In this document: positions 3,370 to 59,486 of the stretch, in pieces | Layout of the letters: each line of letters starts with the position of its first letter | How positions within the stretch are numbered: the first letter of the stretch is position 1 | DNA from: Taenia hydatigena | Taxonomy: Eukaryota; Platyhelminthes; Cestoda; Cyclophyllidea; Taeniidae | Length of the DNA: 64,000 nt | Assembly (NCBI GenBank): GCA_036345935.2 | Contig: JADWOT020000006.1 | Location: 9,522,519-9,586,518, forward strand | Direction of reading: 5' to 3' | Translations under genes and position numbers: made by a program | The notes under the pieces: generated by a model | Told to the model about the DNA's origin: nothing | Database searches by the model: none | The model's input: the letters and a program-made list of their open reading frames with translations, nothing else

Positions 3370-4335
3370 TTAGTAGTATGGTCCTCTATTTCGGGGCACC
3401 TTCAGAAAGGGCGTATAGAAGGTAAGGGAACGCGGCTTGATCGGTCGAACAACGACCGTTTCGTCAGAGTATTCCGAATCGTCGTAGCCGTATCCAGACG
3501 TTTGTCCATCATAATCATCATCCACGTAGTCGGGTTCGTAAGAAATCCGACTTCTTGAATAACTGGATGACTCATATCGCCTACTCGGAACATAACCGCG
3601 GTGAGCGCTTCGTGTTAACTGGTCAGCAAAGCTGTTCATATCGTCTTCTCCCTGGCGATAACCCACGTTGAAGGCCGTCGATCGGCTCCTTCTGTCAAAT
3701 GCAGCTTCCGAATTTCCACCCATGCTACAGCTTTTGAGCCCTGGCTTTGACCCTGTAGATCTATACCCATTGGAGGGACCATGGTGCATTTTGGTGTTGT
3801 CATTGTAACTCATTTCAGAAGACATATTTTTGGAATAGTCGGAAGCCGCAAAGCCCCCGTCCTTAGGAGGTGTCCGCTTATGCTCAGACTGACTTGGGTC
3901 CTCTACACTTTTCTCCGTTCGCTCCGTTGGGGACGCTTGTTTTTCCTTTCCTTTTTTCTCTTGCAAGAATCCACACAACTTATCTCGATTTACGACATCA
4001 GCAACGACTACTTGGTAGCAAGTGTTTTTGCCTTTGGAATTTACAATTAAGCGCACCATTTCTGGAGACCCTTCAACAAGTTCAATGTCTTGCAACTCAT
4101 CGTACGGGATTACATGCTTCACTTTCTTCTTGCCCTGTGCATAGAAGTGAACACCATCCTTGAACAGCTTTATATCCGTAGGTTTGTCATTTTTCAGGTC
4201 ACCAAGCTCATCCTTCGACTTAAATGCCTTGGGTTTGAACGTGGGAATTTGGAATAGGCAAAGTTCCGGCTCTTCATCTGTCGAAGTTCCCTTTTTATTC
4301 CCCTTCTTTTTCTTTTCTTTCTGAACAGAAGGCAT
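3370..4335 (-). CDS. Putative PH-like-core protein with Tyr-rich tail (paralogue 1)
   Basis: A single open exon of 321 residues. The start has A at -3 and the frame ends in Gly-Pro-Tyr-Tyr. Residues 1-20 are very lysine-rich. Residues about 50-125 look like a small beta-rich domain of PH/PTB type, with alternating hydrophobic strands around HVIPYDELQDIELVEG and MVRLIVNSKG. Residues 130-220 are polar and probably disordered. The last 75 residues are rich in Tyr, Arg, Ser and Asp, including RRYESSSYSRSR and YEPDYVDDDYDG. There is no signal peptide or membrane segment, so it is probably intracellular. It pairs with the divergent gene at 8091-9098, which shares the core pattern and the tail blocks. 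Function is unknown. Flatworm genomes carry families annotated as trematode PH-like domain proteins, and this may be one; that link is an inference. An unseen 5' non-coding exon is possible. Confidence 0.75.
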   Translation of the reverse strand: MPSVQKEKKKKGNKKGTSTDEEPELCLFQIPTFKPKAFKSKDELGDLKNDKPTDIKLFKDGVHFYAQGKKKVKHVIPYDELQDIELVEGSPEMVRLIVNSKGKNTCYQVVVADVVNRDKLCGFLQEKKGKEKQASPTERTEKSVEDPSQSEHKRTPPKDGGFAASDYSKNMSSEMSYNDNTKMHHGPSNGYRSTGSKPGLKSCSMGGNSEAAFDRRSRSTAFNVGYRQGEDDMNSFADQLTRSAHRGYVPSRRYESSSYSRSRISYEPDYVDDDYDGQTSGYGYDDSEYSDETVVVRPIKPRSLTFYTPFLKVPRNRGPYY

Positions 4336-4553
4336 TTGGTTATTAAAAAGCGCTGCACAGAAGTGAACCTGAAACGCCCCGAATTATGCGCAGTGCCTGC
4401 GCACTCCTGAGGCCTCATTGGCTCCGACGGACCAATCAGACGAGCGCCTTTTGTAGGTGCTTCTGCAGCTCCAACGCGATGCTGGCGTCGGCATGAGAGC
4501 ACTCCTGCCTCTTGTGGGCCTCTCATCTGGATAATGTTACATGGAGCACGCAT

Positions 4554-7990: not shown

Positions 7991-8090
7991 AGTGGCTGCT
8001 CCTGGGTCTGCGCACCGCTCGCGTGCGCACGTGTTGGGGGAGAGCTCTGCCTTATGCAGCAGAGTAGCTGCACTCTCTTTCCACAACACC

Positions 8091-9098
8091 ATGGCATTAC
8101 TCATCGGGGAGGTCGACAAGGAAGGAAGAGCCATATTCTTTCAGAGCCCTGCACACATCTCCGAATCGGTAAAATTTGACAGTTATGACCTCAGCTCCCA
8201 AGATCGAGTAAATAATCTCTACAACGAAAACCGTCTTCCAGACCCGAAATTTCACGGCTACGTCTGCAATTACCCCTCTCACCTCTCCCTCAATTACCGT
8301 AATGAATCAAGGCATCGTAACGTTAAGCAAAAGATAGATTACAAAGCTGTTCAGGCTACCTACCCATGTGAACGCGATCCCACCCTCGTTTTTATGGTTT
8401 TAGCCAACTCAAAAGTTCGGAATCAAATTCGAGTGTTACGTCTTCCTACTCCGATTATGGGGACCAAGTTTCGCTACGTGATTGATCAACTGCAATTGAG
8501 TCCAATTCGCGAAAGCGCCAACTTTAAAAATGGAAGCGTGCGCACAACCATGAATTCCAGCTCAAGTTTCTCCACCCCAATGGCGGAGGAAAGTGATGAT
8601 AGTGTGACCTCGGCCTCTCACTACTTCTATCGCAGTGCTGCACACAACCCGACTATGCAAGCTTTTTACGGGAAGGAAGAGGAGGAACCAAAACTGCCTC
8701 GAGTTCAACCCCTTGCATTTTCTTCTATGACATACTCGAACCCTTACAATTCTCGGCGTTTACCGAATCGGCAAAAGGGTGATGTCTTTGATAATTTCGA
8801 TCCCACCAACTACGAGATCTACCGGCCAGTTTCTCCTAAGTCTCGGGATGGCCGATGTGCCTATGACTACGGGGAATTTCGTCGTTCATCACGAAGACGT
8901 GCGTCCAGACCGCGATTCGAGAGTTCTGGCTACAACTACAGCAGCCGAGCAGCCGTGCGTAACAGGAGCCTTGTCTACCTGGAACCGGAATACGAGGACT
9001 ATAGGGGGAACCGGTACGAATATGATGCGCCGCAAAGATCTACGTTTGACCGAATGTCCAGGAGCGGATTAGCGCCCCGCAGATACGCTTATTACTAG
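8091..9098 (+). CDS. Putative PH-like-core protein with Tyr/Arg-rich tail (paralogue 2)
   Basis: The frame is open from 7992, but I choose the ATG at 8091 because its context, ACACCATGG, is near-ideal. The upstream in-frame ATG would add 33 low-complexity residues. From 8091 the product has 335 residues, close to the 321 of its paralogue at 4335-3370. Residues 65-120 contain a strand pattern matching the paralogue (KIDYKAVQATYP, then LVFMVLANSKVRNQIRVL). The C-terminal 90 residues are rich in Arg, Tyr and Ser (RPRFESSGYNYSS, YLEPEYEDYRG) and end in Tyr-Tyr. No signal peptide or transmembrane segment is seen. An AATAAA signal lies at 9334-9339. Function is unknown. The shared tail blocks make a cytoskeletal or RNA-granule scaffold conceivable, but that is only a guess. 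Confidence 0.75.
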   Translation: MALLIGEVDKEGRAIFFQSPAHISESVKFDSYDLSSQDRVNNLYNENRLPDPKFHGYVCNYPSHLSLNYRNESRHRNVKQKIDYKAVQATYPCERDPTLVFMVLANSKVRNQIRVLRLPTPIMGTKFRYVIDQLQLSPIRESANFKNGSVRTTMNSSSSFSTPMAEESDDSVTSASHYFYRSAAHNPTMQAFYGKEEEEPKLPRVQPLAFSSMTYSNPYNSRRLPNRQKGDVFDNFDPTNYEIYRPVSPKSRDGRCAYDYGEFRRSSRRRASRPRFESSGYNYSSRAAVRNRSLVYLEPEYEDYRGNRYEYDAPQRSTFDRMSRSGLAPRRYAYY

Positions 9099-25460: not shown

Positions 25461-25490
25461 CTCCCCCCCTCCCCCCCCCAAAAAAAAAAT
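25461..25490. repeat. Poly-C / poly-A tract
   Basis: A run of C broken by one T, immediately followed by about ten A. It is low-complexity sequence. Confidence 0.8.
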
Positions 25491-25550: not shown

Positions 25551-26568
25551 TCATGAGAGGAGGCCAAGGTAAGTAGCTCGAGGATATTTCTTAACCAGGT
25601 AAGGCCACTGGACCACAACGTGGACCAGGTGAAGGTGGTAAAGCAGACGACCGGAGAGGGAGAGGCGGCGCGTGCGGCAGACGCTCTCCACAAAAACCAC
25701 AGCCCTCGAACCGCGCATAAATCTATGCACTACCCAGGCCGCCAAACAAACCGGGACACAAGTTCCAGGACCATTGCAGAGTACCTCAAAAGGCGAAGAT
25801 GTCAAATTGCAATGATGACAGTGTCAAAAGCTGTAATGAAGTACGGGAAACGTGAAACGAAAAAATGAGTGCGAACTCCTAACACCACATTTACAATACG
25901 AGAATTAATAATAACATGTTTACATGGTAAAAATGAGCACAATCGGGAACAAGGAATAGCCACCGAAACGATAATTACTTTGCAAAAACAAAACTTAATT
26001 TAAAGGACACGGCAAAAGGCGCAGATAGAAAGTAATACAGATAATGTTGTCGACTCAGTGAAACAAATTGAGATAATTAAGTCATTGTTTCAAAAGTTGG
26101 CATTGATATTGCATAGAAACAGAGGCGACTTACAAGGCGAGGGCGATGTTTTACAACCAAGACAGTAGCGATCATAATGGCATAGCACGTGGTAAAAATA
26201 CTTGTGAAGTAGGATTGTCCAACTGCCCTGGCGCGAGGCAATTTTTCAATCAAAAACTAATACTTAAAATGGGAGGATATCATACATCATTATTCTGGCG
26301 TGTATTTTCAAGTTCATATGCTTTTTCACCACTTAAATTGTCGTTCGAAGCCACAACGTATACTCTGGGGGAATAGGTTGGAGGCAAATGGCGCACGTAG
26401 GACATCAACTCTGCCGTGTGGCCACCTATGGCGAAGGTGACAAGGAAAGAAATTACCTGAACCCAAAACAAACATTGTGCTGCAACTTCCAGAAGCATCC
26501 AACAAAGATACACAGCATTTTAACACAATCCAAAGTATAGAGAGCAAGAATACTATTTCTAAAGTCAT
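25551..26568 (-). CDS. ALG14: UDP-GlcNAc transferase subunit ALG14
   Basis: ER-membrane anchor that recruits catalytic ALG13; together they add the second GlcNAc to the dolichol-linked precursor of N-glycans. Exons on the minus strand are 26568-26457, 26425-26286, 26256-26134 and 25784-25551, giving 202 residues, near the human 216. Residues 1-25 form the hydrophobic N-terminal anchor. GSGGHT (36-41) is the signature loop, completed across the first intron. PTYSPRVYVVAS, the IEKLPRARAV block and CNGPGTCVP follow. ESVCR, RLSLSGRLLYHL and VQWPYL near the C-terminus are family hallmarks, and the chain ends YLGLLS. Introns 1 and 2 are only 31 and 29 nt (26456-26426 and 26285-26257), both GT-AG, and both must be removed to restore frame and motifs. 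The third is 349 nt. The gene lies among LTR copies, but its coding sequence is intact. Confidence 0.95.
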
Positions 26569-30247: not shown

Positions 30248-33200
30248 ATGACGTCGTCGTCTTTTGATTTCGCTGGTCAGAGTCGTATTGCCCAGTTAGC
30301 GCGCACATATTGGCTACCTCCAATCGGCCCAGAGGGCCAGCAGAAACAAAAAAAAGTGTTTCAGAGTGATCTTGTTGAACGAATTTACCTTGAAGATATG
30401 ATCAGTTTCGGGTTCTCTCATCGTCGATGCATGATGCTTGAGTTGGCTCAGTATCTCGAATGTTGGCTGTGGCCAAACTTTGACGAAAAAAGCAGCCGTG
30501 CCCATGTCATATCCATCTGCGTCATGGTCAATGAGAAAGCTCGCGAAAGAGTGCCCATCTGGCAGGTACTATTCTTGCGCATGTATTACCTCATTGGGAT
30601 GAGTTTAATAGGTTAACTGACTGTGTTCTTCCTTTTCCAGTGCTTCCATGATAATCCTGATCAATTTGGTCTGTTGATTTTCCGCGTGATCGAGGTACTT
30701 GTGGATGATGCCATTGATGTCAATCTTCTCCTCCCATCAGACGATCCGAAGCTGATGAAGCATCGTGATGATCTCCGCAAACGCCTGACAGAACACATTG
30801 TTTTAATCGCCTTTCTCTCCCACTGCCTGACCAGCCTGGCGGAAGTAGGCGTTTTGCGTCGCTACTTGAAGGACATCTACTCCTTAGCGGTTTGGCGGCA
30901 TCTGCAGCCGCAAAGGCTGGAGAAGGAATTGGCAGCAAGTCCTTCTCGTTATCGGAAACTTCTGAAAAAACTAGAGAAGCATGCGGCTGAGTTGAGTGCA
31001 GAAGAGTGCGAAAGGTTGACCAAACAGCGCGCCTTTGTGGCCAATTTCGTCGACAAATTCTTGGCTATTCTGGAAAATTTGCCTGACGATAAGGTTCTGA
31101 ATTACCAACCTCTCGCATTTAATTTGAGCATTTATGGAGTGTTTTTAACTTCCAGCATTCTAACTTTCTATCATGCACGTCAAAATCTTGTATCCATACG
31201 TAAGAGTAGCAAAAGTCGAAGTGGGATAAGGTTTAACGGGTCCGGTCCCCACTTTCATTTAAGGTATTTGATGTGGTTTTATTGCGGTGCATTTGCTCAT
31301 GTTTTCTACTTTTTGCAGGAACTGGACCCCCTTCTCGCCCATTACCTGCATAGGAGTCTACTGCTTTTGATCGATTTATCCAGCATGTTGATGACTCGTC
31401 GCTTCCTTATGATTTTAATGGATGATCGCCATACAGTAGTACGCTGTCAGAATTGCGCCCTTTACAAATCAGACGGAAAGAAAGAGGGTTGCTTGTTCTC
31501 TGAACTTGTTGACATTTTCTCCTTCTATGCCCAGTTCCAAGTAGATTCGACTACAGGAGAAGCAGTGGATGCAACCGAATTGGATCGAAGGTTGGCCCAT
31601 TTTGGGACCCGTGTTTTTATTTGCTTTTAAGCCATGATTCTTACTAAATGGACTCTTCAAGTCACAAACCTTGTTTCCTGTATTTCATTTTGGCCTAAAG
31701 CCATAAGTGGTTTTCGTGTTTTTCACAAATGAAGACCTCGAGGTATCAACTTGCTACGTCTTAAAACCGACTTATTTCAATGCATTTTTTTTTCGTTGCC
31801 AGTCATTCCTTAATGACTGGCTTCTGATTCCTTCGCACCTTTGATGAACCTTAATTCGAACACAAGCGTGAGAACCCAGAGATTTCCGATTTAGGTATTT
31901 CGAAGATCACTATATTTCACAACTGTTCCTGCATTAATCGTTCATCAAATAGCTAAAATTTGTTCATTATCCCACCTTATCGTTCGAAATTGAGGTGCAG
32001 ACGATCATTATCGCCTTGTTTTTACCGCCTTTTACTCAATTATGTTTTTTTGTACGATTGACTGTTTTACAATTTGAATTTCAATGATTTGCTTGAACTT
32101 TTAGGCACTGTTTCCAATTAAACAATCTTCAATTGACAGTGTTTTCAGAGAGTCGAGAAGGTATATTCCGTGATTTCGCAGTGGCAAATCCAGCTGCCTA
32201 CGAGTCTCGGGAGAAGTTGGCTGATTTCTTGCAAAAATTAACAACAAAACAACTGTATGGTTTGGCGGCTAAATTTCACTTTTTCCCTTTAACTCCAAAA
32301 GGACAGGAGGAAAGTGGTAGTGGTGATTCCTTATCAGCTGCCAAAAAGCGCAAAGTCGACCAAACTCCCCTAAGTGTCTACCCACCACAATTTCCTAGCA
32401 AACTTTTCCAGAAGGACATGCTTATCAAGGTAACCTTCGTGCCGCTTTTTATTTGAACTTAGCGTAATGTAATACCACTATTTATCCGTTTGCATTCGAA
32501 TCTAATTTTGAGCTCACATGCTTGCCTTTGTCCAGCTCCTGGTTTATCACTTTGCAATTCGTGAATCGCATCTGGCCCAAATGAATAGTGCCCCTTTGTA
32601 TCCTACGGAGGAGCTCCTTTGGAACGGGAATCTGGTCCCGAGCGAATTTTTCTCCGGCGAAGAATGTCTGGCTTTGCCTAAACTCGGTCTGCAGTTTTTA
32701 ACTCTGCAAGACTACTTGATGCGTAATTTCACTCTCTTTCGACTAGAGTCAACGTTCGAGATTCGACAGGTAAGAGTATATTGCGCTAAGAATGTTTCGA
32801 GGTTTGATGGTGCTTGTATACTAGGTTATGGTTTTTTCCACCCCGCTGTAGGATTTGGAAGACGCACTGTGTCGCATGAGGCCGTGGAGAGGAGAGCACG
32901 GCCAGGTGGTGTTCGACGGGTGGTCGCGGATGGCACTCCCTATTCAGGCCTTCAACATCGTGGAGGTGGGCAAGCCGGCGCTGGGTGCAAGGCAGTCCTC
33001 TCGGGTGCGTGCAGACGTGCGCGTCGTGTTGGCAGGCCTGCGTGAGGACGTACAGAAAGAGTGGCAGGGTTTGCGTCGCCACGATCCTGTTTTCCTTGTA
33101 ACTGTTCAACCAAAAAGTCAGCTCAGGAACTGGAAGTACGTTTCTTTTCCTTCACATCCCCTGGCCATCTTATTTAACATAACATCACAATGAGTAGTAA

Positions 33201-36200
33201 GTTTTTCTTACCAGTCTTCTTGGATGGCTAGTTCACTTCGTTATTTTGGGTTGCGTATTTCTGACTTTTTCATGTTCCCCTTTGTAGAAAGGCTTTACAT
33301 TATCAGCATTGTTGTACAGGAAATTACTCAGGTCCTAGAGTTGATTATGAACACTCCAATTGGTCAATACCTTTCCCTCAACTTGTCTAGGTACAACCCA
33401 CGCAAGCCGTTCCTTTCACAAATTGGCATTTTGGCAGTTCGTGGCTGTGAAATCGAGGGTCAAGTAGACAAAGCTGGGAAGCTCATTCCCGATGAGGAGC
33501 GTTTTGGTCTGGTCCCAAGTAAAGGTGTGTGCGATTGGTTTCGTGTGCCTTAACACAAAAATCTGACTGAAATCTCACGTCTACTTTTACATCAAGCAGA
33601 GGAGTTTGACGCTCCAGCAACGGCTCCAACATGGCGGGTTTCTTTGGATCCCTGCCAATACCAGGAGGACATAAATCGTTTGCGAAATGAGAAGAATCGG
33701 GGGAAGGCTATTCGTGCGGAGATCGCTCGGGCGAAACGCGAGGGACGCTCGGCTGAAGCGATCAACGTGCTAGAGAAGAAGGCTTTTGAGGCTGACTCCT
33801 CCTCGCCTGATGACATTTACGACACCTTCAATGTGTTGGTGCGCAGAAAACCCAAGGAAAACAATTTCAAGGCTGTCCTCGACACCATACGGTGTGTAGG
33901 ATTTAATTGAGTGGCACTGTACTTGCTATGGAGGCGGTTTTTTTTTTCATTGCCCAACTTCGCAGTATTTTCTACATTTGATAGCCTTGAGTAAGGGGAT
34001 ACTTTATTTCATTGTAATGCGTGTTTCATTTGATCTATAGCAGATCCTGCGTAGCCACCTACTCATGTTATCTTCAGGAAATTGTCTTTTGCTAAAGAGA
34101 TCTCATGAACACTCGTTCTGTGGTGCCCGACTGGCTTTTGGATTTGCTTATGGGCTACCTTGATCCTGCGGCTGCACATTACTCACGCCGTCCGGAATTT
34201 TATGATTCCCGACAGAACTGGTTCGATACCTTCCTCTCTGCTGACCATCTCCACAAGTCCTTTCCACAATACGACATTAAATTTGTCGATATGCGTTATA
34301 AGTGTCAAGATGGCGCCGCAGAAACTGGCTCCGCTGATGTTGGTAAGTTTAATCGATCATTTAAATCTGCGTGTTTACTTGGCATTTTAATGTTGCCGTG
34401 GCTGTATAATTTACATCTATTTGCATTGGAATTGAAACGCGAGTCTTCAGGTAGATATGCCCATAACTTATCATTTGTACTGCTTATATAGCTACTGGTA
34501 ACACTAAGTTAACGTAGATCAACAACATCATTTCCATATTATGGACTGTCGATAGTGTTCGTTCATCCTTGTCATCTAGCTGTCGATCCACCACCGCCAT
34601 ATCGCATAACATTTCCCCCTCTGGGTGAAGACCCGACGGCACGTGTAGAGGCCCGTTTATTGACTGAACTTCCTACAGCGGCGGACTCTAAGCCAAAGGA
34701 CTCCTCAAACACGGTGGAAGCTTCCTTGAAGCCTGTGCTCACAGCGGAGTCCTACACGCCAGCGGGGTATCAGGTGCCCTGGAACCTCCTAACGGTGGAC
34801 TGTCCGACCTGGCTGCCGAGCTCCACATCCTCAGGAGTGAAGCCGGGTAATCGGATCGCCTTCACACCTCGCCAGGTAGAGGCCATCAGAGCGGGCATGC
34901 AACCCGGCCTCACCATGGTCGTGGGACCACCGGGTACGGGGAAAACCGATATCGCCGTACAGACTATCCACAACCTCTACCACAACTACCCCGGTCAAAG
35001 GTAATACAACTCAAGCAATGGCACAAGCAACTCGTGCACTTCAAGGCCTTCCATCAGTCACTCACGATGCACTACCCTCTTCTAGAATTCTGGTAGTTAC
35101 TCACTCCAATCAGGCGCTTAACCAACTCTTTGAAAAAATCATCGCGCTGGATATCGACGAGCGCCATCTTCTGCGCCTGGGTCATGGTGAGGAGGCCCTG
35201 GCAACCACAAAGGACTTTTCTCGTTACGGTCGTGTGGACTTTATCCTGTCAAAGCGAATCGAGCTCCTTCAGAAGGCAAGCCTTTGATACTGATTCTACT
35301 TTTCATCTGCAAGCCTGATCGCCTTTTCCGATTAGAATGCTTAAATGCACCTCATTACTACGGTAATCCATTATCCTATAATTTTTCACGCCTTTGGTGG
35401 TTAATTTCTTCACTTCCATGTGCAAAGTGGAGAAAAGGGGTTAGGCATGAATGCTTCCTGACCGCCCTACGTTGCTGTCTGACAAATAATAACTTACTTG
35501 AGTTTTGATAGTCTAGTAATTGTCACTTTCTAAGAATTTTCCTATGGTGTTAGGGAAGAGAAAAGTGTTAACGGTGTGTTTAGTCCATGAGTCATCCCCA
35601 ACTCATTAAATGGCTGCTCTCCTCTGCTAGGTTGTACTCCTGCGCAAGAGCCTAGAGCTGGCGCTGAAGGCGGACGAGAGGACGGTTAACCTCATTAATG
35701 GAGGGAATGCAGATGCCGCTGCCGCCAAACCGAGACCACTGACAAATGACATTGATGAGAACGCACACCAATTGTACACTTGTGAAACTGCGCAGTACTT
35801 CTTCCTACAGGACGTACTTCCGCGTTGGGAGAAGTTCATTTCCGAAGCAGCCAAATTGCTGAAATATGGCGATGAGGAGGATGCTTCTGTGGCTGGCTTT
35901 GTGCGCAGTCATTTTCCCTTCATTTCCTTCATCACTGGACAGGTTAATCCTCCAATGGATCTTGTGGAACGGATCTTCCCCGTAAGCATTTTTCTGTAAT
36001 GGGTATTTGCTTTGGGGATCACTTGTTAAATGTGTGTGTGCTTCACGTGCACCTCTCTTAATACCTGTAAGTCTGCTTTAGTTGAAAATATTTTTTAGCT
36101 TAATGCTTAGGCTACAGCCGAGCCCCCATGACCGGTTCTTTTCATGTGTGTAGGGCCAAAGCCTAGCAAAGGATCTGTCGACCGCGCGTTCCTGCTTCCG

Positions 36201-38469
36201 GGCTATTTCAGCTATTTTTAATACGCTGGAGGAGTTCAGGGCATTTGAGTTGATGCGCACGGGTCTGGAGCGCGCTAATTTCCTCCTCACTCAGGAGGCC
36301 AGGATAGTCGCCATGACTTGCACCCACGCCGCGTTAAAACGTCGTGACCTTGTTCAACTGGGTTTCGCCTACGATACCATTATCATGGAGGAAGCCGCTC
36401 AAATCCTCGAAATTGAGACCTTCATACCGCTCCTTTTACAGAATCCCGATATCTCGGGCTATAACCGGCTGAAACGGTGGATCATGATTGGTGATCATAA
36501 TCAACTACCTCCTGTTGTCAAAAATCAAGTACACATTCCAGCTTCGCTTCCTCACTTTGTCAACTTAATCGCATCGTGTTCGTATGATGCTGCCTACAAA
36601 TAACTATGCTTATATATCATTGCAAGCTGCTTTATTTTAGGCCTTCAACAACTTTTCGAACATGGGCCAGTCACTGTTTGCACGCCTGGTGAAGTTGGGC
36701 GTGCCGACCATCCAACTGGACGCGCAAGGCCGAACGCGACCCTCTATCTCGCGGCTGTACAGCTGGCGTTACGAGCGCCTTTTAGATATTCCGCATGTTA
36801 TCACTGGACAAGAGTATAAACTCTGTAATCCTGGCTTCCAATACGAATACCAACTCATCAACGTGGAGGATTATAAGGGTAAGTGAACGGTACCACCTCT
36901 TGCTTCACTTTCGTCCCCTTGTCCCCGTACGATGTTTTCTAAGGTTGCATGGATTTGTGCGCTTTGGTTTTGTGGTTTTCCTGTTGTTATGCTCGTAGCA
37001 ACGCATTAATTTGGTCGTTTTTAGCATTCATTTGGCGTTTTAATGATTTGAAGGTGTTGGTGAGTCGGAACCGAGTGCATACTTCTACCAGAATTTAGCC
37101 GAAGCGGAGTATGTGGTTGCAACCTACATGTATATGCGAATCCTCGACTATCCACCAGATCGAATAGCCATTCTGACAACCTACAATGGTCAGAAGCATC
37201 TCATTCGCGATGTCATCGAGGCGCGCTGTGCTTCTAATCCGCTCCTCGGCAAACCGCGAACGGTTACGACCGTTGACAGATTCCAGGTACGCAGATTATG
37301 TTTCTCCCTTCTCATTAACTAACTCCATCTAAATTTCACTTATGCGAAAGATTTTTAAAACACCTGCCATCCAATCCCTCATTTCTACTCAACTTCAAGC
37401 TCATGAATCCATTATGCCATATATTGGGTATATGATATCTGTACACTGCAGCATGCTGGATGTATTGTTACTTGTAGCAACCGATCACTAAATAAGTCAC
37501 TTAGGAGGAAATATGCAGGATGTCGACTCATGTATAGGTTTATTTGTGCGAGTGACAAGTATGGGACTGCACCCCGCCCTCTCATTCCCCTTTTTAGGGT
37601 CAGCAAAACGATTATGTACTCGTTTCGCTGGTGCGCACGCACACCGTGGGCCACCTGCGTGACGTGCGTCGGCTTGTGGTCGCCCTGTCACGAGCGCGCC
37701 TCGGTCTGTACATCTTTGCTCGTGTTGACCAGTTTGCTAATTGCCAGGAGCTTCGACCCGCCTTCGATCGACTCCTTGGCCGACGTGGTCTCGGCCCTGA
37801 TAATGAAGTCCGACCAACTTGTCTTCATCTTACTCCTTGGGAGACTTGGAAAGTAAGCCGAAAGCTCCTTCTGTGCGGCCTCTTCTTTCCGCTTCGTGTA
37901 TTTGTTTCGTAGACAACGTTTCTAAGTAGGTGTAGCATAAATCAAATGCTAAAATCAAAGGGATTCTGTGATCTGAAGCAATTCGAAAAAGTGTTGCCAC
38001 TAAAAGCATTACCTCATCCTCGACGGAACGACTGTTGGAGGCTCTGTGGAAACACTGCTTTTTTCTTTTTTAGGATCCTCGAGATGCAGGCTCTACTGAC
38101 CTTCGTCCATTGGCTTCCAAACTGAGTAAAGGGCCTGTTGTGATCGAGAGTATGCCAGCCATGGCTTCGTATGTCAGTAAACTCTACGAAGAACGAGTGA
38201 AGGATATGGTTGGTCGGTATGTCGCAGCGAAAGGGCCTCGCAAGCTAGGTGCCCTAAAAGTTGTGCAGAGGGCCTCAAATGCTGCAATGGTTACAAGTAT
38301 TGAGGAAGGAGCCCCGATGGAGAAAATGGAAGTCGATGAAGCTACGGGGGGGACGAGATCGGGCGAAGAACGCTTATCACCTGTAACTATTGAGACCACT
38401 ATACCGAATACTCTGGACTTCGAACTAAAAAGTGAATCTATCAGTGAAGTCGTGGATGCAAAGGAGTAG
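30248..38469 (+). CDS. AQR: RNA helicase aquarius (intron-binding protein)
   Basis: Spliceosomal SF1 helicase that binds the intron upstream of the branch point with U2 snRNP. Exons: 30248-30565, 30641-31093, 31319-31590, 32105-32429, 32536-32769, 32852-33135, 33391-33524, 33600-33891, 34098-34342, 34580-35000, 35086-35275, 35631-35981, 36154-36528, 36641-36878, 37054-37286, 37598-37852 and 38074-38469. All reading phases agree, giving 1671 residues, longer than the human 1485. The N-terminal helical repeat part holds [13 protein letters not shown] and [16 protein letters not shown]. Helicase motifs are GPPGTGKT (about residue 967), [24 protein letters not shown] (about 1251), [32 protein letters not shown] and [17 protein letters not shown]. 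The extra length comes from inserts, such as a charged helix after LDPCQYQED and a linker before the helicase core. Intron 35276-35630 is GC-AG. Intron 31094-31318 (225 nt) has no in-frame stop. Confidence 0.96.
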
Positions 38470-39085: not shown

Positions 39086-39270
39086 TGTAGTACTTTGTTT
39101 GTTAGAACTGCCGGTTTCTGTCAAGGTCACAGAGGTGGCCGTACTGCCCTAGCTGCGTGGGCTGGCCTCCGGGCCATGCCAGCAGCCTAGTTCCCTCTGT
39201 CCGGTGAATATATGTATTCTACCCTGCCACTTTGCGTTCTTTCACCTTAAGGGAGCCCCGGGACGCTACA
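39086..39270 (+). mobile_element. Solo LTR, near-perfect target duplication
   Basis: A 185-bp plus-orientation unit from TGTAGTACTTTG to GGGACGCTACA. It is flanked by CTATT on the left and CTCTT on the right, a 4-of-5 match consistent with a decayed target-site duplication. It lies between AQR and the DUF2045 gene. Confidence 0.87.
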
Positions 39271-39593: not shown

Positions 39594-42500
39594 ATGGGTG
39601 GTGTCTCGACTCTTGATGAACTGTTGAAGGAAATTGCAAGGGAACGTTCAAAAAAAATTGGGAAGGCCTAGGTTTCAAGTTCACTATTGCTTGAATGCTT
39701 ATGATGCTGCACAGAATCATTTGTATTAGAAGAATCTCGCCTCGGATCTTTCCATAGGTCTTTTCAACACTGGATGATAGTCGCTTTGCCTGATTATATT
39801 ATTCTTATATTCTTTGCATGAGTGATTTCACAGGTTTTATTCATAAAACATTTTCATAACTGCTCAACTTTGCGCACAATTGACTACCATTACACAACTT
39901 GACCCATCAGTCCCGTTTAACTAATGTGTAATACGATTTCTTGTGGGTAGCCATGGATCTGTAAACGTGAGTATTTGATTAATTATTTCGATCAAATGGT
40001 CGGCTTTTTCTTATAGTTCCGCTTTTACAAATGTGGAACTCGCACAGAATATCATGAATTCCAACTATTGCTTTCGTGGAATTGATGTATCTGTTAAATT
40101 ACTTTTCGACAAATATATGGATGTTATTTAAAATTATTTATGTGCTTAGGCAGTCTGAGAGGTTTCTTCTCTTTGAAACTTGCCGTTTTTCTGGTTATTT
40201 AACATTTTAGGGTCGAGAAAATATCACAACGCATATTGAAATTTAAACCCATTTGGGCGTTCTTCTATACAAGTTGATTCATTTTTGTAGATTCGGATGC
40301 CAGTTATGGTATACGTAATCAAAGGTCTGATCCATCGACGGATATGTCCTGGGCTGCTCTCTTTAAGTCAACATTCTGCGCTCCGGGTGCGCTACATCTT
40401 ATTAATAGTGGTTCGCAGGACGATATTATTTTCATCGTAGGACAATCGACTTGGAGATTCACCAAAGTAATGCGAACTTTTCATTAGTTACTGGGTTTCA
40501 GCCTTATTTACGTGTATTCCGTCGATGCAGTCCAAACATTCCACAAATTAATGACGGCACCGTTAACTGGGAGAGCACTGTTTACCTTAATCTCATAACT
40601 CACTGTGTAAGTTCTACGAATTTAGCAGAGGACTTGTAATATTATGTTTTAACTTGTTGTTTGTTGTTTTTCTAGTTTGTATACGTCATCACCTTGGGTA
40701 TATGCACTCGCTCGGGTGCGCAGGAAATGGAAATATTAAAAAAAAAATCATTGGTAGTTTGACACTTTTATTTTCGCACTTTTATGCTTTTACGTTTAAT
40801 ATTTCCGCGAGAACTCTGCTTCCTTACAGCTTTTTAATCTTAATCGAACCATCACCTATCATGCTTTCACTCATTTGCGCCAGGACCATAATTTGGGTGT
40901 GCAGGATACAATAGCCCATACCGTTGTTTTGAATTTTTTTGCTAAGACGTTAAAGATGTTTCATTTTTGAGTCTCCTAATGTCATGTAGATTGTCTATGC
41001 CTCTCCGAGTTACCGGCCAATGGTTTCGAAGGGAACGCAAGAGACGATTGTGTATCCTCATATAGTTTTCTCGATTGACAACTTCGAGGATGTGAGTCGC
41101 TTCTGTGTGTTTCCTAGGTTAGGCTTTGTTGGGGTATTATCCATTTTGATAGTGTGGCGCTAATTTTTGTGAGAACTTTGGGATATATTCTTAGTTTGCA
41201 TAGTTAGCGATTTTTGTGCATTGAAATGCTATCGTCTGTCATGGCAATGGCTTTCCACTATTTTCGTTCACTATTATTTCTTATATAGGTGGACATAACT
41301 GCCATAATTTCAGTTTTGTTTTTTTTCCTGACGGTCATGTGCTTTGCGTGCAGGCTTTCCGAGACTGTGATCTTCGTGACAGCGAATGTCTCTGTGTGGA
41401 ACTAACGGCTTACAATCAATCCGGTGCATTGCAAGGTGTCCTTTTCGAAGGCGTCGTACGATACGCTGTTCTAAAAAGCGCCTATGATATCGATGTATGC
41501 TTTCGACTTAGATTCGTTGGACATGTTGAAACTCTTCTTTCACCATTCATAGTCTTCTCTCCGGTTAATCAAATGCTTTCATCTATGCGATGTACAAAAT
41601 TTTTTGTGCATCTGCTGATATTTTACAGCCAAATATGCATGGAGTTGAGCCATTTAATGCTCCAGAGATTGTAGATTTTCTCTCCGTTTTCAATTTCTGT
41701 TCTTAATCTATATTTAATTTAATGGATAACTTTACGTTTTCCGAGCGCTTATCTATCATTCCACTAACATGGTCATTATTCCTAGTTTCGAAGTAATTAC
41801 ACGGGGAATCGTTGCTATCATCATCACTGCTTTTTATCAACTGCAATGTCTTGCATCCAGCATTCCCCCATTCCAGAACAGTTTGTTCTAGATGTTGCCA
41901 AAATCTTCACCTCCTGAAGGCAAATCGTGTAATTAAACTGACCATCCATCAAAAGCATGGTTTCTTGGTCATTTTTTGCTACGTGTCCATCTTGATAAAT
42001 CATTTCGTAATCTATAGACACGCACAAGAAGTTGCATTGGAAATCAAGATACAAGTCTGTACCATTCAACGACCCAAACCATTAGTTCCGTCAGTACATG
42101 CTTTCTAAACTAGTTTTGAGCACCTTTTCGAAATGGTTTGTCGTTTCACATATTTCTAATATATCATTAGCATGATACGTCTTCTTGACCTGCTCAAAGT
42201 CCTGGGACCATTCATCGCATGCACCGTAGTGATATGCAAAGGTACATAAAGATGCTCTTGCGTGCAGAGTTACAGTTGAAGCGATCTTTTGCGGGAGGAT
42301 TAAGGTACATTAATTATGTGCGTTATGCCTTCCCTTACCTTTTACATTAGTGGGCGCTATGCTCGCGAATGAGGTGTTTCTTTCGCGTTTGCTCCTTGAA
42401 TTGGTTTGTTATAATTTGTTGGCTGTTTGGGTTTGCGCTTTTTTTGCTACCACAATGGACGAAATTGAACGTTTACACGCTTTACACCAAGAAACTTGCT

Positions 42501-47081: not shown

Positions 47082-48627
47082 ATGGTAGGTGCTTGATTAT
47101 TGTCAGTATTTCGTGATTCAAGGCCCGTCGTTATGATACTCGAACAACAATTTTCTCACCAGAGGGTACGGCGATTATCGGTGCTTATTTATTTTTAGGC
47201 CGTTTATATCAAGTAGAATATGCAATCGAAGCTGTCGGTCATGCGCCTACCTGTCTTGGGATCGTTGCAGTGGATGGCATAGTTCTCGCGGGCGAAAAGC
47301 GTTTCATTAATAAACTTTTGGATGAATCTGCTTTTTCGGAAAAGATATTCAGGATTAATGATGATATAGCTTGTGCAGTTGCAGGAATTACAGCTGATGC
47401 CACTGTACTGATAAAAGAGATGCGTCTTATCGCTCAAAGGTGTGAATGTGTTAGTTTGCTTTGCGGCTTATTCGTAAAGCCCTCGTTGTTAAATGTTTTG
47501 AAGCAACTTATGTTTTGACTTATTTATTGTAGTGCTACGAGGTTTTTTATTTATTTAGATATCTTCTGGCTTATCAGGAACCAATACCAGTGGAACAGTT
47601 GGTGAGCCACATTTGTGACCTTCAGCATGGCTATACGATGTACGGTGGTCGTCGACCGTTTGGCGTTTCAATGCTCTTTGTTGGCTGGGACAAACATTTT
47701 GGTTATCAGCTTTACCAAAATGATCCATCAGGCAACTTTCTGGGCTGGAAGGCTACGTGCATAGGTTCTAATTCGCCAGCCGCCTCATCCATCCTTGAAT
47801 CTGACTACAATCCTGAGTGCACAGCGGAAGAGGCGGTTAAGCTTTGTGTAAAGGTGCTCTACAAGACTATGACGATGTCGAAACTGACATCAGATAAAGT
47901 GAGGACTGCTATTAACTTTCCTTTTTCCACCACAAACCTTGCACTTGAGACGTTTTTTTGTTTTATTGTAATTGCTTTTAATTTTGGGCGTTGCTGTGAG
48001 CTTGGTTTTCTAGCCAAAATAACCTTTTGCTTTAGTAAAGCTGAATTATTTTGATAAGAATTAAGTCACACTTGTTTTTCATTTCTTTTGCTTGTAAACG
48101 TTGGTTGTATCTCGCCTTTCCTCGCTGACTCTTTGTATTCATTTAAACTTATTGACTTCCCTTCTTCATTTCTCTTTCATATTTTTGATCAGATATTGCG
48201 TTGGATACGTTTCCATGATAATTTTCCTTTGAAAGTTGGTGCCATCAGTCCTTGATGTTGCTGAATAATGTCCTCCTAAGGTTTTCTCGAGGGCACTTAA
48301 ATACTGTATTTGACACGCTTGAAACTAACCGAATTTTCCATTTCGGTCGCATAATCGGAGGTTATGTTCATTTCCGTGATGTCACAAATCACCACTGTGC
48401 CTTGTTCAACAGACGGGTTTTTTACTTTTTAAAATAAGTAACATGTTTTTCCTTCTTTATAGGTTGAGATTGGTCTTTTGCAGCGAAAGGAGGATAAAAC
48501 ACATGTCCGAATCTACCCTCAAAGCGAGGTTGACGCTCTTATCAAGGAAGTGGAAGCCGCATACCCAAAAGTATCGGATTCTTTGAAGAGCTCTGAGGCC
48601 AACTTGAGAGGCGCTGAGAAAAAATAG
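47082..48627 (+). CDS. PSMA4: Proteasome subunit alpha type-4
   Basis: Non-catalytic alpha-ring subunit of the 20S proteasome. Exons: 47082-47084, 47123-47165, 47199-47439, 47559-47898 and 48463-48627, giving 263 residues (human 261). Exon 1 is only the ATG. The chain then reads [20 protein letters not shown], the N-terminal alpha-subunit signature, with the [15 protein letters not shown] helix. [93 protein letters not shown] and KLTSDKVEIG all match subunit alpha4. The C-terminal tail is shorter in Lys/Glu repeats than in vertebrates. Introns 1 and 2 are only 38 and 33 nt. The other two are 119 and 564 nt. Confidence 0.97.
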
Positions 48628-51835: not shown

Positions 51836-52888
51836 TCATGACAATGTAGAACCCTCCAAATGCAAGATGCCGTAGTCCAGCCGAGCGCTAATGGACTTTG
51901 GGTCAATGTGATCTGGAATGTCATACTCCTTCGAAAACTCGCGGAAGGTACTCCGATTAGACTGCCTTTCCTCATGCCGTGCGCTTACGTAAACGCGATT
52001 GTTCAGGGTCCGTATTTGAATCTCCTCTGGCTTGTAATCACTTCCCACTGGAATTTCGACATGAAACCTGGGCCTTGTCTGAGTACTCAAAAATGACGGA
52101 GTTGGTGATGCTCTTGACGAAAGATGACTGCTACGTCCAGTGCCAGAAAGGGTCGAAGGTGTCGTCAGTCCACTCGTTCCACTGCTGCCTGAGGTGATAT
52201 TGAATGAAAGGCTGTGAGTGGTTGACCCAATTGGTACGTCAACAAGCAAAATATTGTCAACGCTGATTGAAGCTGTTATGAGGGGTTCTTGGGCTCCTTT
52301 AGGCAAGTCTACAGTTCTGGTCACCTGCTTCGAGGTGGAGCTGGTACCAATGCGCTGCTCTCTAACTGCTGTCACGATTATCTGACCGTCGCGTACTGTG
52401 ACATGGACATCATCCTGATGGAAGGATTGAACATCGAATTGTGCTAGAAAGTGTAGATTCCCGTCCATTCCGCGCTCGTAGCTGGTCACAACAGGACAAT
52501 CCTCGGCACTTGAAGGCGGAGAGTGATGATGGCTGGGTGCAGAGCTTAGGGTCTCGGGTCTGCTAAGTGGAAAGGCAGGTGTGTTGAAAAACGATGAGCG
52601 CATTTCGCGCATCTCCGCATCCCACTGCCGACGTCGTTCGTCGAAACGTCGACGCATGTCCTCGAACCAACGCTCACTGTCGGAGCGTCGCACGCTCATG
52701 AGGGAGTCATTGAAGTGACCGAAGAGGTCATCATCGTGCGATTTATCCAACCAAGATGATGAGGAAGCAGATTTCCCACCAAGGGTGTTGTAGCCTCTCT
52801 CAGTGACTATGGGCACAACAGTGGGCTGACGAGTTCCACTTGTGTCAACGCGTATTGGGACCGACATTTCAGAGCGATATATAGCCAT
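51836..52888 (-). CDS. Small heat-shock protein with two alpha-crystallin domains
   Basis: ATP-independent chaperone of the alpha-crystallin/Hsp20 family. The intronless frame has 350 residues if the first ATG is used, or 343 from the second (MSVPIRVDTSG), which has the better context (A at -3). Residues 1-130 form a variable N-terminal arm with a basic/charged helix near 70-95 (RWFEDMRRRFDERRRQW). The first alpha-crystallin domain covers about 141-222 (LHFLAQFDVQSFHQDDVHV to ILLVDVPIGS). A Ser/Thr/Gly-rich linker spans 223-270. The second domain covers about 273-348 (RFHVEIPVGSDYKPEEIQI to LDYGILHLEG). Two domains in one chain is typical of flatworm sHSPs such as the p36-type antigens of tapeworms, while most animals have one. 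A heat-shock element lies 44 bp upstream of the first ATG. The absence of introns suits a stress gene. Confidence 0.94.
   Translation of the reverse strand: MAIYRSEMSVPIRVDTSGTRQPTVVPIVTERGYNTLGGKSASSSSWLDKSHDDDLFGHFNDSLMSVRRSDSERWFEDMRRRFDERRRQWDAEMREMRSSFFNTPAFPLSRPETLSSAPSHHHSPPSSAEDCPVVTSYERGMDGNLHFLAQFDVQSFHQDDVHVTVRDGQIIVTAVREQRIGTSSTSKQVTRTVDLPKGAQEPLITASISVDNILLVDVPIGSTTHSLSFNITSGSSGTSGLTTPSTLSGTGRSSHLSSRASPTPSFLSTQTRPRFHVEIPVGSDYKPEEIQIRTLNNRVYVSARHEERQSNRSTFREFSKEYDIPDHIDPKSISARLDYGILHLEGSTLS
52871..52884 (-). promoter_or_regulatory. TATA-like motif overlapping the sHSP start
   Basis: On the minus strand, GGCTATATATCGC overlaps codons 2-5 of the longest sHSP frame, about 50 bases after the heat-shock element. 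If it is a real TATA box, transcription would start inside the predicted coding region and translation would begin at a later ATG. It may equally be coincidence in an Ala-Ile-Tyr-Arg codon run. Confidence 0.3.
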
Positions 52889-52929
52889 AAAGGGTCAACA
52901 CAATGTGATACGAAGTGGAGTGTAGAGTA

Positions 52930-59301: not shown

Positions 59302-59486
59302 TGCAGCACTTTGTTTGTTGGAACTAACGGTTTCGGTCAAGGTCACAGAGGTGGCCGTACTGCCCTAGTTGCATGGGCTGGCCTTCGGGCTATGCCAGTA
59401 GCCTATTTCCCTCTGTCCGGTGAATATATATATTCTACCCTAGCATTCCGCCTTTTTTGCCTTCGAGAGGGCCTCGGGACGCTACA
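59302..59486 (+). mobile_element. Solo LTR
   Basis: A 185-bp plus-orientation unit from TGCAGCACTTTG to GGGACGCTACA with all consensus blocks, including GAATATATATATTC. The flanking 5-mers ATTAC and ACGAT do not match. Confidence 0.87.

Follow-up and report, generated by a model that had tools for sequence, protein, structure and literature searches.

Can introns of only 31 and 29 nt be spliced from a tapeworm gene, or do two such stretches reflect a damaged gene, assembly errors or boundaries placed at the wrong sites? The question is raised by ALG14, a subunit of the UDP-N-acetylglucosamine transferase, whose gene lies in the 64,000-nt stretch of Taenia hydatigena DNA analysed here (the window). 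A first-pass annotation had proposed two GT-AG introns in this gene, shorter than the usual lower limit for animal introns, and had assigned them to a local class of very short introns.

Structure of the ALG14 gene

The gene is complete and is carried by the minus strand at 26568-25551. Its parts are as follows (a slash marks a splice site).

26568-26457 (-), exon 1: 112 nt; ATG start, ends after GS of GSGGHT
26456-26426 (-), intron 1: 31 nt, GT-AG, phase 1; donor CAG/GTAATT, acceptor CATAG/G
26425-26286 (-), exon 2: 140 nt
26285-26257 (-), intron 2: 29 nt, GT-AG, phase 0; donor GAT/GTATGA, acceptor TTAG/T
26256-26134 (-), exon 3: 123 nt
26133-25785 (-), intron 3: 349 nt, GT-AG, phase 0; ordinary length
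25784-25551 (-), exon 4: 234 nt; CNGPGTC motif, TGA stop

The short introns, GTAATTTCTTTCCTTGTCACCTTCGCCATAG (31 nt) and GTATGATATCCTCCCATTTTAAGTATTAG (29 nt), are introns 1 and 2 of the three and thus mutually adjacent in the gene. Their coordinates, lengths and GT-AG ends had been given exactly by the first-pass annotation. As it had also claimed, their removal restores the GSGGHT signature and the frame. The protein then reads ...VLGSGGHTAEL... and ...QNND/FLIEKLPRAR... across the junctions, and the spliced coding sequence of 609 nt is translated into an intact product of 202 aa without internal stops. Neither intron can be retained, again as proposed: retention of the 31-nt intron leads to a frameshift and stops, and retention of the 29-nt intron reads NNDV followed at once by a stop. 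On the minus strand, a run of T and then a run of G lie at about 25461-25489, some 60 nt 3' of the ALG14 stop codon.

The protein was matched by Pfam PF08660 with 190.8 bits (cut-off 27) at profile positions 2-171 of 171. In a 19-sequence alignment, residues G38-T41 (GGHT) were nearly invariant and N129-C134 (NGPGTC) invariant. The best identities among the 120 matches listed, which did not include the window's own protein, were those to Echinococcus granulosus (86%), Taenia solium (86%) and Hydatigera taeniaeformis (77%). Base-level error is compatible with the sequence taken alone, and ALG14 might accordingly be a pseudogene or be affected by assembly errors, both stretches being insertions and not introns. 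This is extremely unlikely in view of the exact GT-AG ends at which removal yields a protein with 86% identity to those of two relatives, the four exons, all of them open, and the match to PF08660 over its length.

Spliced alignment with homologous proteins

Since the ALG14 frame is left open and correct by 202 combinations of GT-AG introns (one or two introns, 18-121 nt each), restoration of the frame is by itself weak proof, and homology is needed for placing the junctions. For this, a purpose-written spliced protein-to-DNA aligner was used, in which introns of at least 16 nt and frameshifts were permitted. From 120 listed ALG14 homologs, 18 were aligned with the window protein, and 11 of these served as queries for spliced alignment: six tapeworm proteins (P0001-P0006) and those of Protopolystoma (a monogenean), Macrostomum (a free-living flatworm), Cimex (a bug), Physella (a snail) and Mustela (a mammal). 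P0008, P0007 and P0011 were dropped on account of apparent misannotation at or beside the junctions, P0049 because it begins after junction 1, and P0009 because its N-terminus is truncated and it carries an insert where intron 3 lies; P0019 and P0076 were dropped without a stated reason.

Exactly 26456-26426 and 26285-26257 were recovered with all 11 queries. The annotated ALG14 proteins of E. granulosus, T. solium and H. taeniaeformis align without gaps at both junctions. An additional 59-nt N-terminal intron (26617-26559) was placed by two of the 11 queries (P0013 and P0118) and is regarded as spurious.

For the T. solium query, raising the minimum intron length lowered the alignment score from 874.1 to 823.4 (minimum of 30), 799.7 (nominal minimum of 39) and 795.7 (minimum of 50). 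The nominal minimum of 39 was enforced only to within 2 nt, which allowed a 37-nt intron to be chosen. Minima of 39 and 50 yielded models with one and two frameshifts plus a stop codon. Forbidding the 29-nt intron thus cost 50.7 score units and forbidding the 31-nt intron as well a further 23.7; the same two losses were 50.7 and 23.7 for the E. granulosus query and 23.7 and 15.2 for Macrostomum. Among random inserts matched in length and composition, GT..AG at a placement that leaves the product unchanged had a frequency of 0.0035 (31 nt) and 0.0021 (29 nt).

The large number of frame-compatible choices leaves room for a reading in which the short introns are real and the true splice sites lie elsewhere, for example at an intron of 65 nt starting at 26321 or one of 37 nt starting at 26462. 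Both of these emerge once shorter introns are forbidden in the aligner, and the donor of the 29-nt intron is weak. Conserved residues are deleted by either alternative, however, and the unanimous preference for 31 plus 29 nt was obtained with introns down to 16 nt allowed, so that we judge displaced sites very unlikely. The homologous proteins imply that both short introns would be removed from the mature mRNA.

Public tapeworm ALG14 models

Comparison with the window protein points to apparent errors in three public ALG14 models (Taenia crassiceps, Mesocestoides corti and Hymenolepis diminuta), located at or next to the short introns. In the H. diminuta model P0008, 13 additional residues are inserted precisely at the GS/GGHT boundary and three others next to the position of intron 2; none of these occurs in another H. 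diminuta record, P0006. The 13 residues suggest that intron 1 is 39 nt long in this species and was retained in frame. In the T. crassiceps (P0011) and M. corti (P0007) models, the residues that correspond to FLIEK are missing downstream of intron 2, and the N-termini are aberrant. Predictors in which very short introns are forbidden by a minimum-length setting are possibly the cause of these errors. Because the models break at the places of the junctions, intron 2, and probably intron 1, would appear to share their positions across several tapeworm families.

Other short introns and the AQR gene

Further short introns and one long gene with many introns were located in the window.

47166-47198 (+), microintron in PSMA4: 33 nt, in frame; an exact 11-residue insert versus PSMA4 chain 3unb_B
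22893-22858 (-), microintron in EF2: 36 nt, in frame; an exact 12-residue insert versus both EF2 chains shown
20925-20889 (-), probable microintron near the 3' end of EF2: 37 nt; splicing joins NESFG to FTAEL
40467-40501 (+), possible microintron in a DUF2045-like gene: 35 nt; seen in the sequence
30248-38466 (+), complete Aquarius (AQR) gene: 16 introns

The local class of very short introns claimed in the first pass was thus borne out for PSMA4 (33 nt) and the 36-nt EF2 intron, both of which are exact inserts relative to homologs, and partly for the 37-nt EF2 intron. The EF2 chains show NESFGF, by which the latter is supported up to the first downstream residue; for the EF2 end beyond it we used what we presume to be the sequence. 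The 35-nt candidate in the DUF2045-like gene was noted from sequence only and was compared solely with the human protein as we take it to read, and the 38-nt intron that had also been listed was not found in the window. In total, four introns of 29-36 nt (including the ALG14 pair) have homolog support and a fifth of 37 nt has it partly; they occur alongside introns of 72-514 nt.

Aquarius is an intron-binding spliceosomal helicase. Four of the 120 AQR homologs listed were aligned. The window protein shares 1,580 identical residues with T. solium AQR (1,692 aa) and 1,558 with its T. crassiceps counterpart (1,672 aa). The protein identities place the DNA in a taeniid, probably a Taenia species different from these two, and a dicyemid or protist source, suggested by the intron lengths, was rejected on the same grounds. 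All 16 AQR introns are 72 nt or longer; very short introns are thus no general feature of the window. For the AQR intron near 35276-35648, a GC donor was found in all four alignments, with boundaries that vary with the query.

An ab initio intron scan was conducted on the window plus 202 kb of the same genome (266 kb), using a weak codon signal (0.134 bits per codon). It returned 31 GT-AG clusters, compared with 22-36 for five decoy dinucleotide pairs, and recovered one 72-nt AQR intron and no verified microintron; the in-frame introns of 33 and 36 nt were excluded by design.

GC content, determined in 4-kb steps, was 40-47%, which agrees with published values of 42-44% for Taenia (PMC5036155). 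A direct repeat of 185 nt (39086-39270 and 59302-59486, 85% identical), with both copies overlapped by open frames, is possibly part of a dispersed element. At 51836-52894 (-), a small heat shock protein is encoded by a single ORF with two HSP20 matches, a layout that we take to be typical of flatworms. Long single ORFs with Tyr/Ser/Arg-rich C-termini lie at 3370-4383 (-) and 7992-9098 (+). Neither had a Pfam match, and paralogy of the two was unsupported, with no significant BLASTP likeness between them.

Splice signals and branch points

For scoring of splice sites, a small model was built from 18 local sites (14 from AQR, one from ALG14 intron 3, two from EF2 and one from PSMA4); scores of the training sites are in-sample. 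The training set omitted two AQR introns out of 16, one with an uncertain acceptor and one with a GC donor and uncertain boundaries. With this model, the donor of the 31-nt intron scored 9.1, the top of 30 GTs scored, and its acceptor 2.2, slightly below the lowest training acceptor (2.5). The donor of the 29-nt intron scored 2.2, below every training donor (4.1 or more), and was among the top five of the 30 GTs; its acceptor was outside the best 8 of 17 AGs scored. An internal AG (TTTTAAG) at 23 nt of the same intron scored 8.8, above the true acceptor, and its use would leave TAT TAG, a stop.

These scores bear on a reading in which splicing of intron 2 frequently uses the internal AG, or the intron is retained, leading to a premature stop, nonsense-mediated decay and control of ALG14 dosage. 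The strong internal site next to a weak real acceptor would suit it, as would the products, which read Y-stop for the internal AG and V-stop for retention. An intron of 23 nt would be shorter still; we regard such control as very unlikely.

A loose consensus gave candidate branch adenosines in both introns. Their distance from the 5' splice site is 18 nt in the 31-nt intron and 15-21 nt in the shorter one, and their distance from the 3' end is 7-13 nt. These positions are guesses. In the 29-nt intron, a further candidate scored equally well; at 5 nt from the 5' end, it was considered too close and set aside. For trematode microintrons, the polypyrimidine tract is reported as lost (PMC6530080). 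Both short ALG14 introns have U or A at position -3, as do the Echinococcus TGR introns described in PMC2873472.

Interpretation and proposed mechanism

With a probability of about 0.94, both stretches are genuine, putatively constitutive U2-type (GT-AG) microintrons of a functional taeniid ALG14 gene, at the short end of the short-intron class reported for flatworms (peak 1, see below). This reading draws on the exact GT-AG boundaries, the intact conserved protein, the agreement of 11 out of 11 homologs and the destructive effect of retention.

Both introns would be removed by the ordinary U2-type spliceosome via intron definition, with the splice sites paired across the intron. For the 31-nt intron, the branch adenosine would be about 18 nt away from the 5' splice site; for the 29-nt intron, this distance would be 15-21 nt. 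Aquarius has its footprint on the intron upstream of the branch point. In a bolder reading, which we hold to be doubtful, tapeworm introns are spliced with no more than about 21 nt separating the 5' splice site from the branch point. The spliceosome would then have to take a route on which neither the normal B-complex geometry nor Aquarius upstream of the branch point can be accommodated, and some of these introns may be tuned to be spliced inefficiently. The 29-nt intron, with its better-scoring internal AG leading to a stop, may be an example of such tuning.

For the human spliceosome, about 50 nt are reported to be needed between the 5' splice site and the branch site, and a spacing of 35 nt prevented assembly on one pre-mRNA (PMC6692369). 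Flatworm and dicyemid spliceosomes evidently need less than this. In the bolder reading, a different route of assembly or activation follows from the spacing of about 21 nt, which is under half of the human need. As their spacing is far below the human value, such introns are natural substrates for testing how the spliceosome handles it. The finding matters also in that gene models break at these introns, as in the ALG14 of T. crassiceps, M. corti and H. diminuta. It is otherwise modest: a clean, homology-supported pair near the lower size limit reported for flatworms.

Comparison with known short introns

Short introns have been published for tapeworms, flukes and a monogenean (PMC5036155, PMC6530080), and in the parts of the flatworm intron literature considered here no stated lower limit for cestode introns was found. 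Both ALG14 introns have canonical GT-AG ends, are shorter than 75 bp and would belong to the lower mode near 36 bp. The first-pass claim that they lie below the usual animal limit holds as far as that limit goes; within flatworms, they are not out of range (Schistosoma introns of 30 and 31-41 nt have been described), and the Dicyema mean is 26.2 nt. Given a taeniid tapeworm as the host and the published short introns of flatworms, the surprise at 29 and 31 nt shrinks.

In Taenia, short introns are reported with peaks at about 36 and 73 bp (PMC5036155). Introns of the first peak are described in Taenia saginata, T. asiatica, T. solium and Echinococcus multilocularis, where they are placed towards 3' ends (PMC5036155). 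The intron lengths in the window resemble this two-peak pattern in appearance, with a sample too small for a test. The ALG14 pair shares the worm family and length class with peak 1 and has companions of 33-37 nt in the window, but the two are 5-7 nt below the peak and are the first two introns of their gene rather than lying towards its 3' end (PMC5036155).

In the fluke Opisthorchis felineus, microintrons peak at 37 bp, and introns shorter than 75 bp make up about 34% of the total (PMC6530080). They are reported at 5' ends, mutually adjacent within a gene and with splice sites nearer to consensus than those of other introns (PMC6530080). The ALG14 introns are likewise adjacent and at the 5' end of the gene. 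By the model of 18 sites, the donor of the 31-nt intron is strong and the donor of the 29-nt intron and both acceptors are weak; the 29-nt intron would seem not to fit the near-consensus splice sites.

Intron 3 of TGR is 30 nt long in Schistosoma japonicum and 33 nt in S. mansoni (PMC2873472), and the sgtp2 and sgtp3 genes of S. mansoni have introns of 31-41 bp (PMC4653847). These are also genes of parasitic flatworms, with lengths within 1-2 nt of the ALG14 pair; these worms are flukes, however, and the 29-nt intron is one nt below the shortest of their introns (PMC2873472, PMC4653847). Introns tabled at 9 and 18 nt for a Schmidtea TR gene may be errors (PMC2873472). For Dicyema, a mean of 26.2 nt was obtained from genomic and cDNA sequence of 16 introns in 7 genes (PMC2222250). 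These are likewise animal spliceosomal introns shorter than 32 nt, but the introns studied there are uniformly short, and those in ALG14 occur alongside introns of hundreds of nt (PMC2222250). As published lengths are 30-41 nt, with a mean of 26.2 nt in Dicyema, 29 and 31 nt lie at the short end of a described class and not outside it. The ALG14 pair is real, well supported and ordinary for a flatworm, an extreme example of a feature already described.
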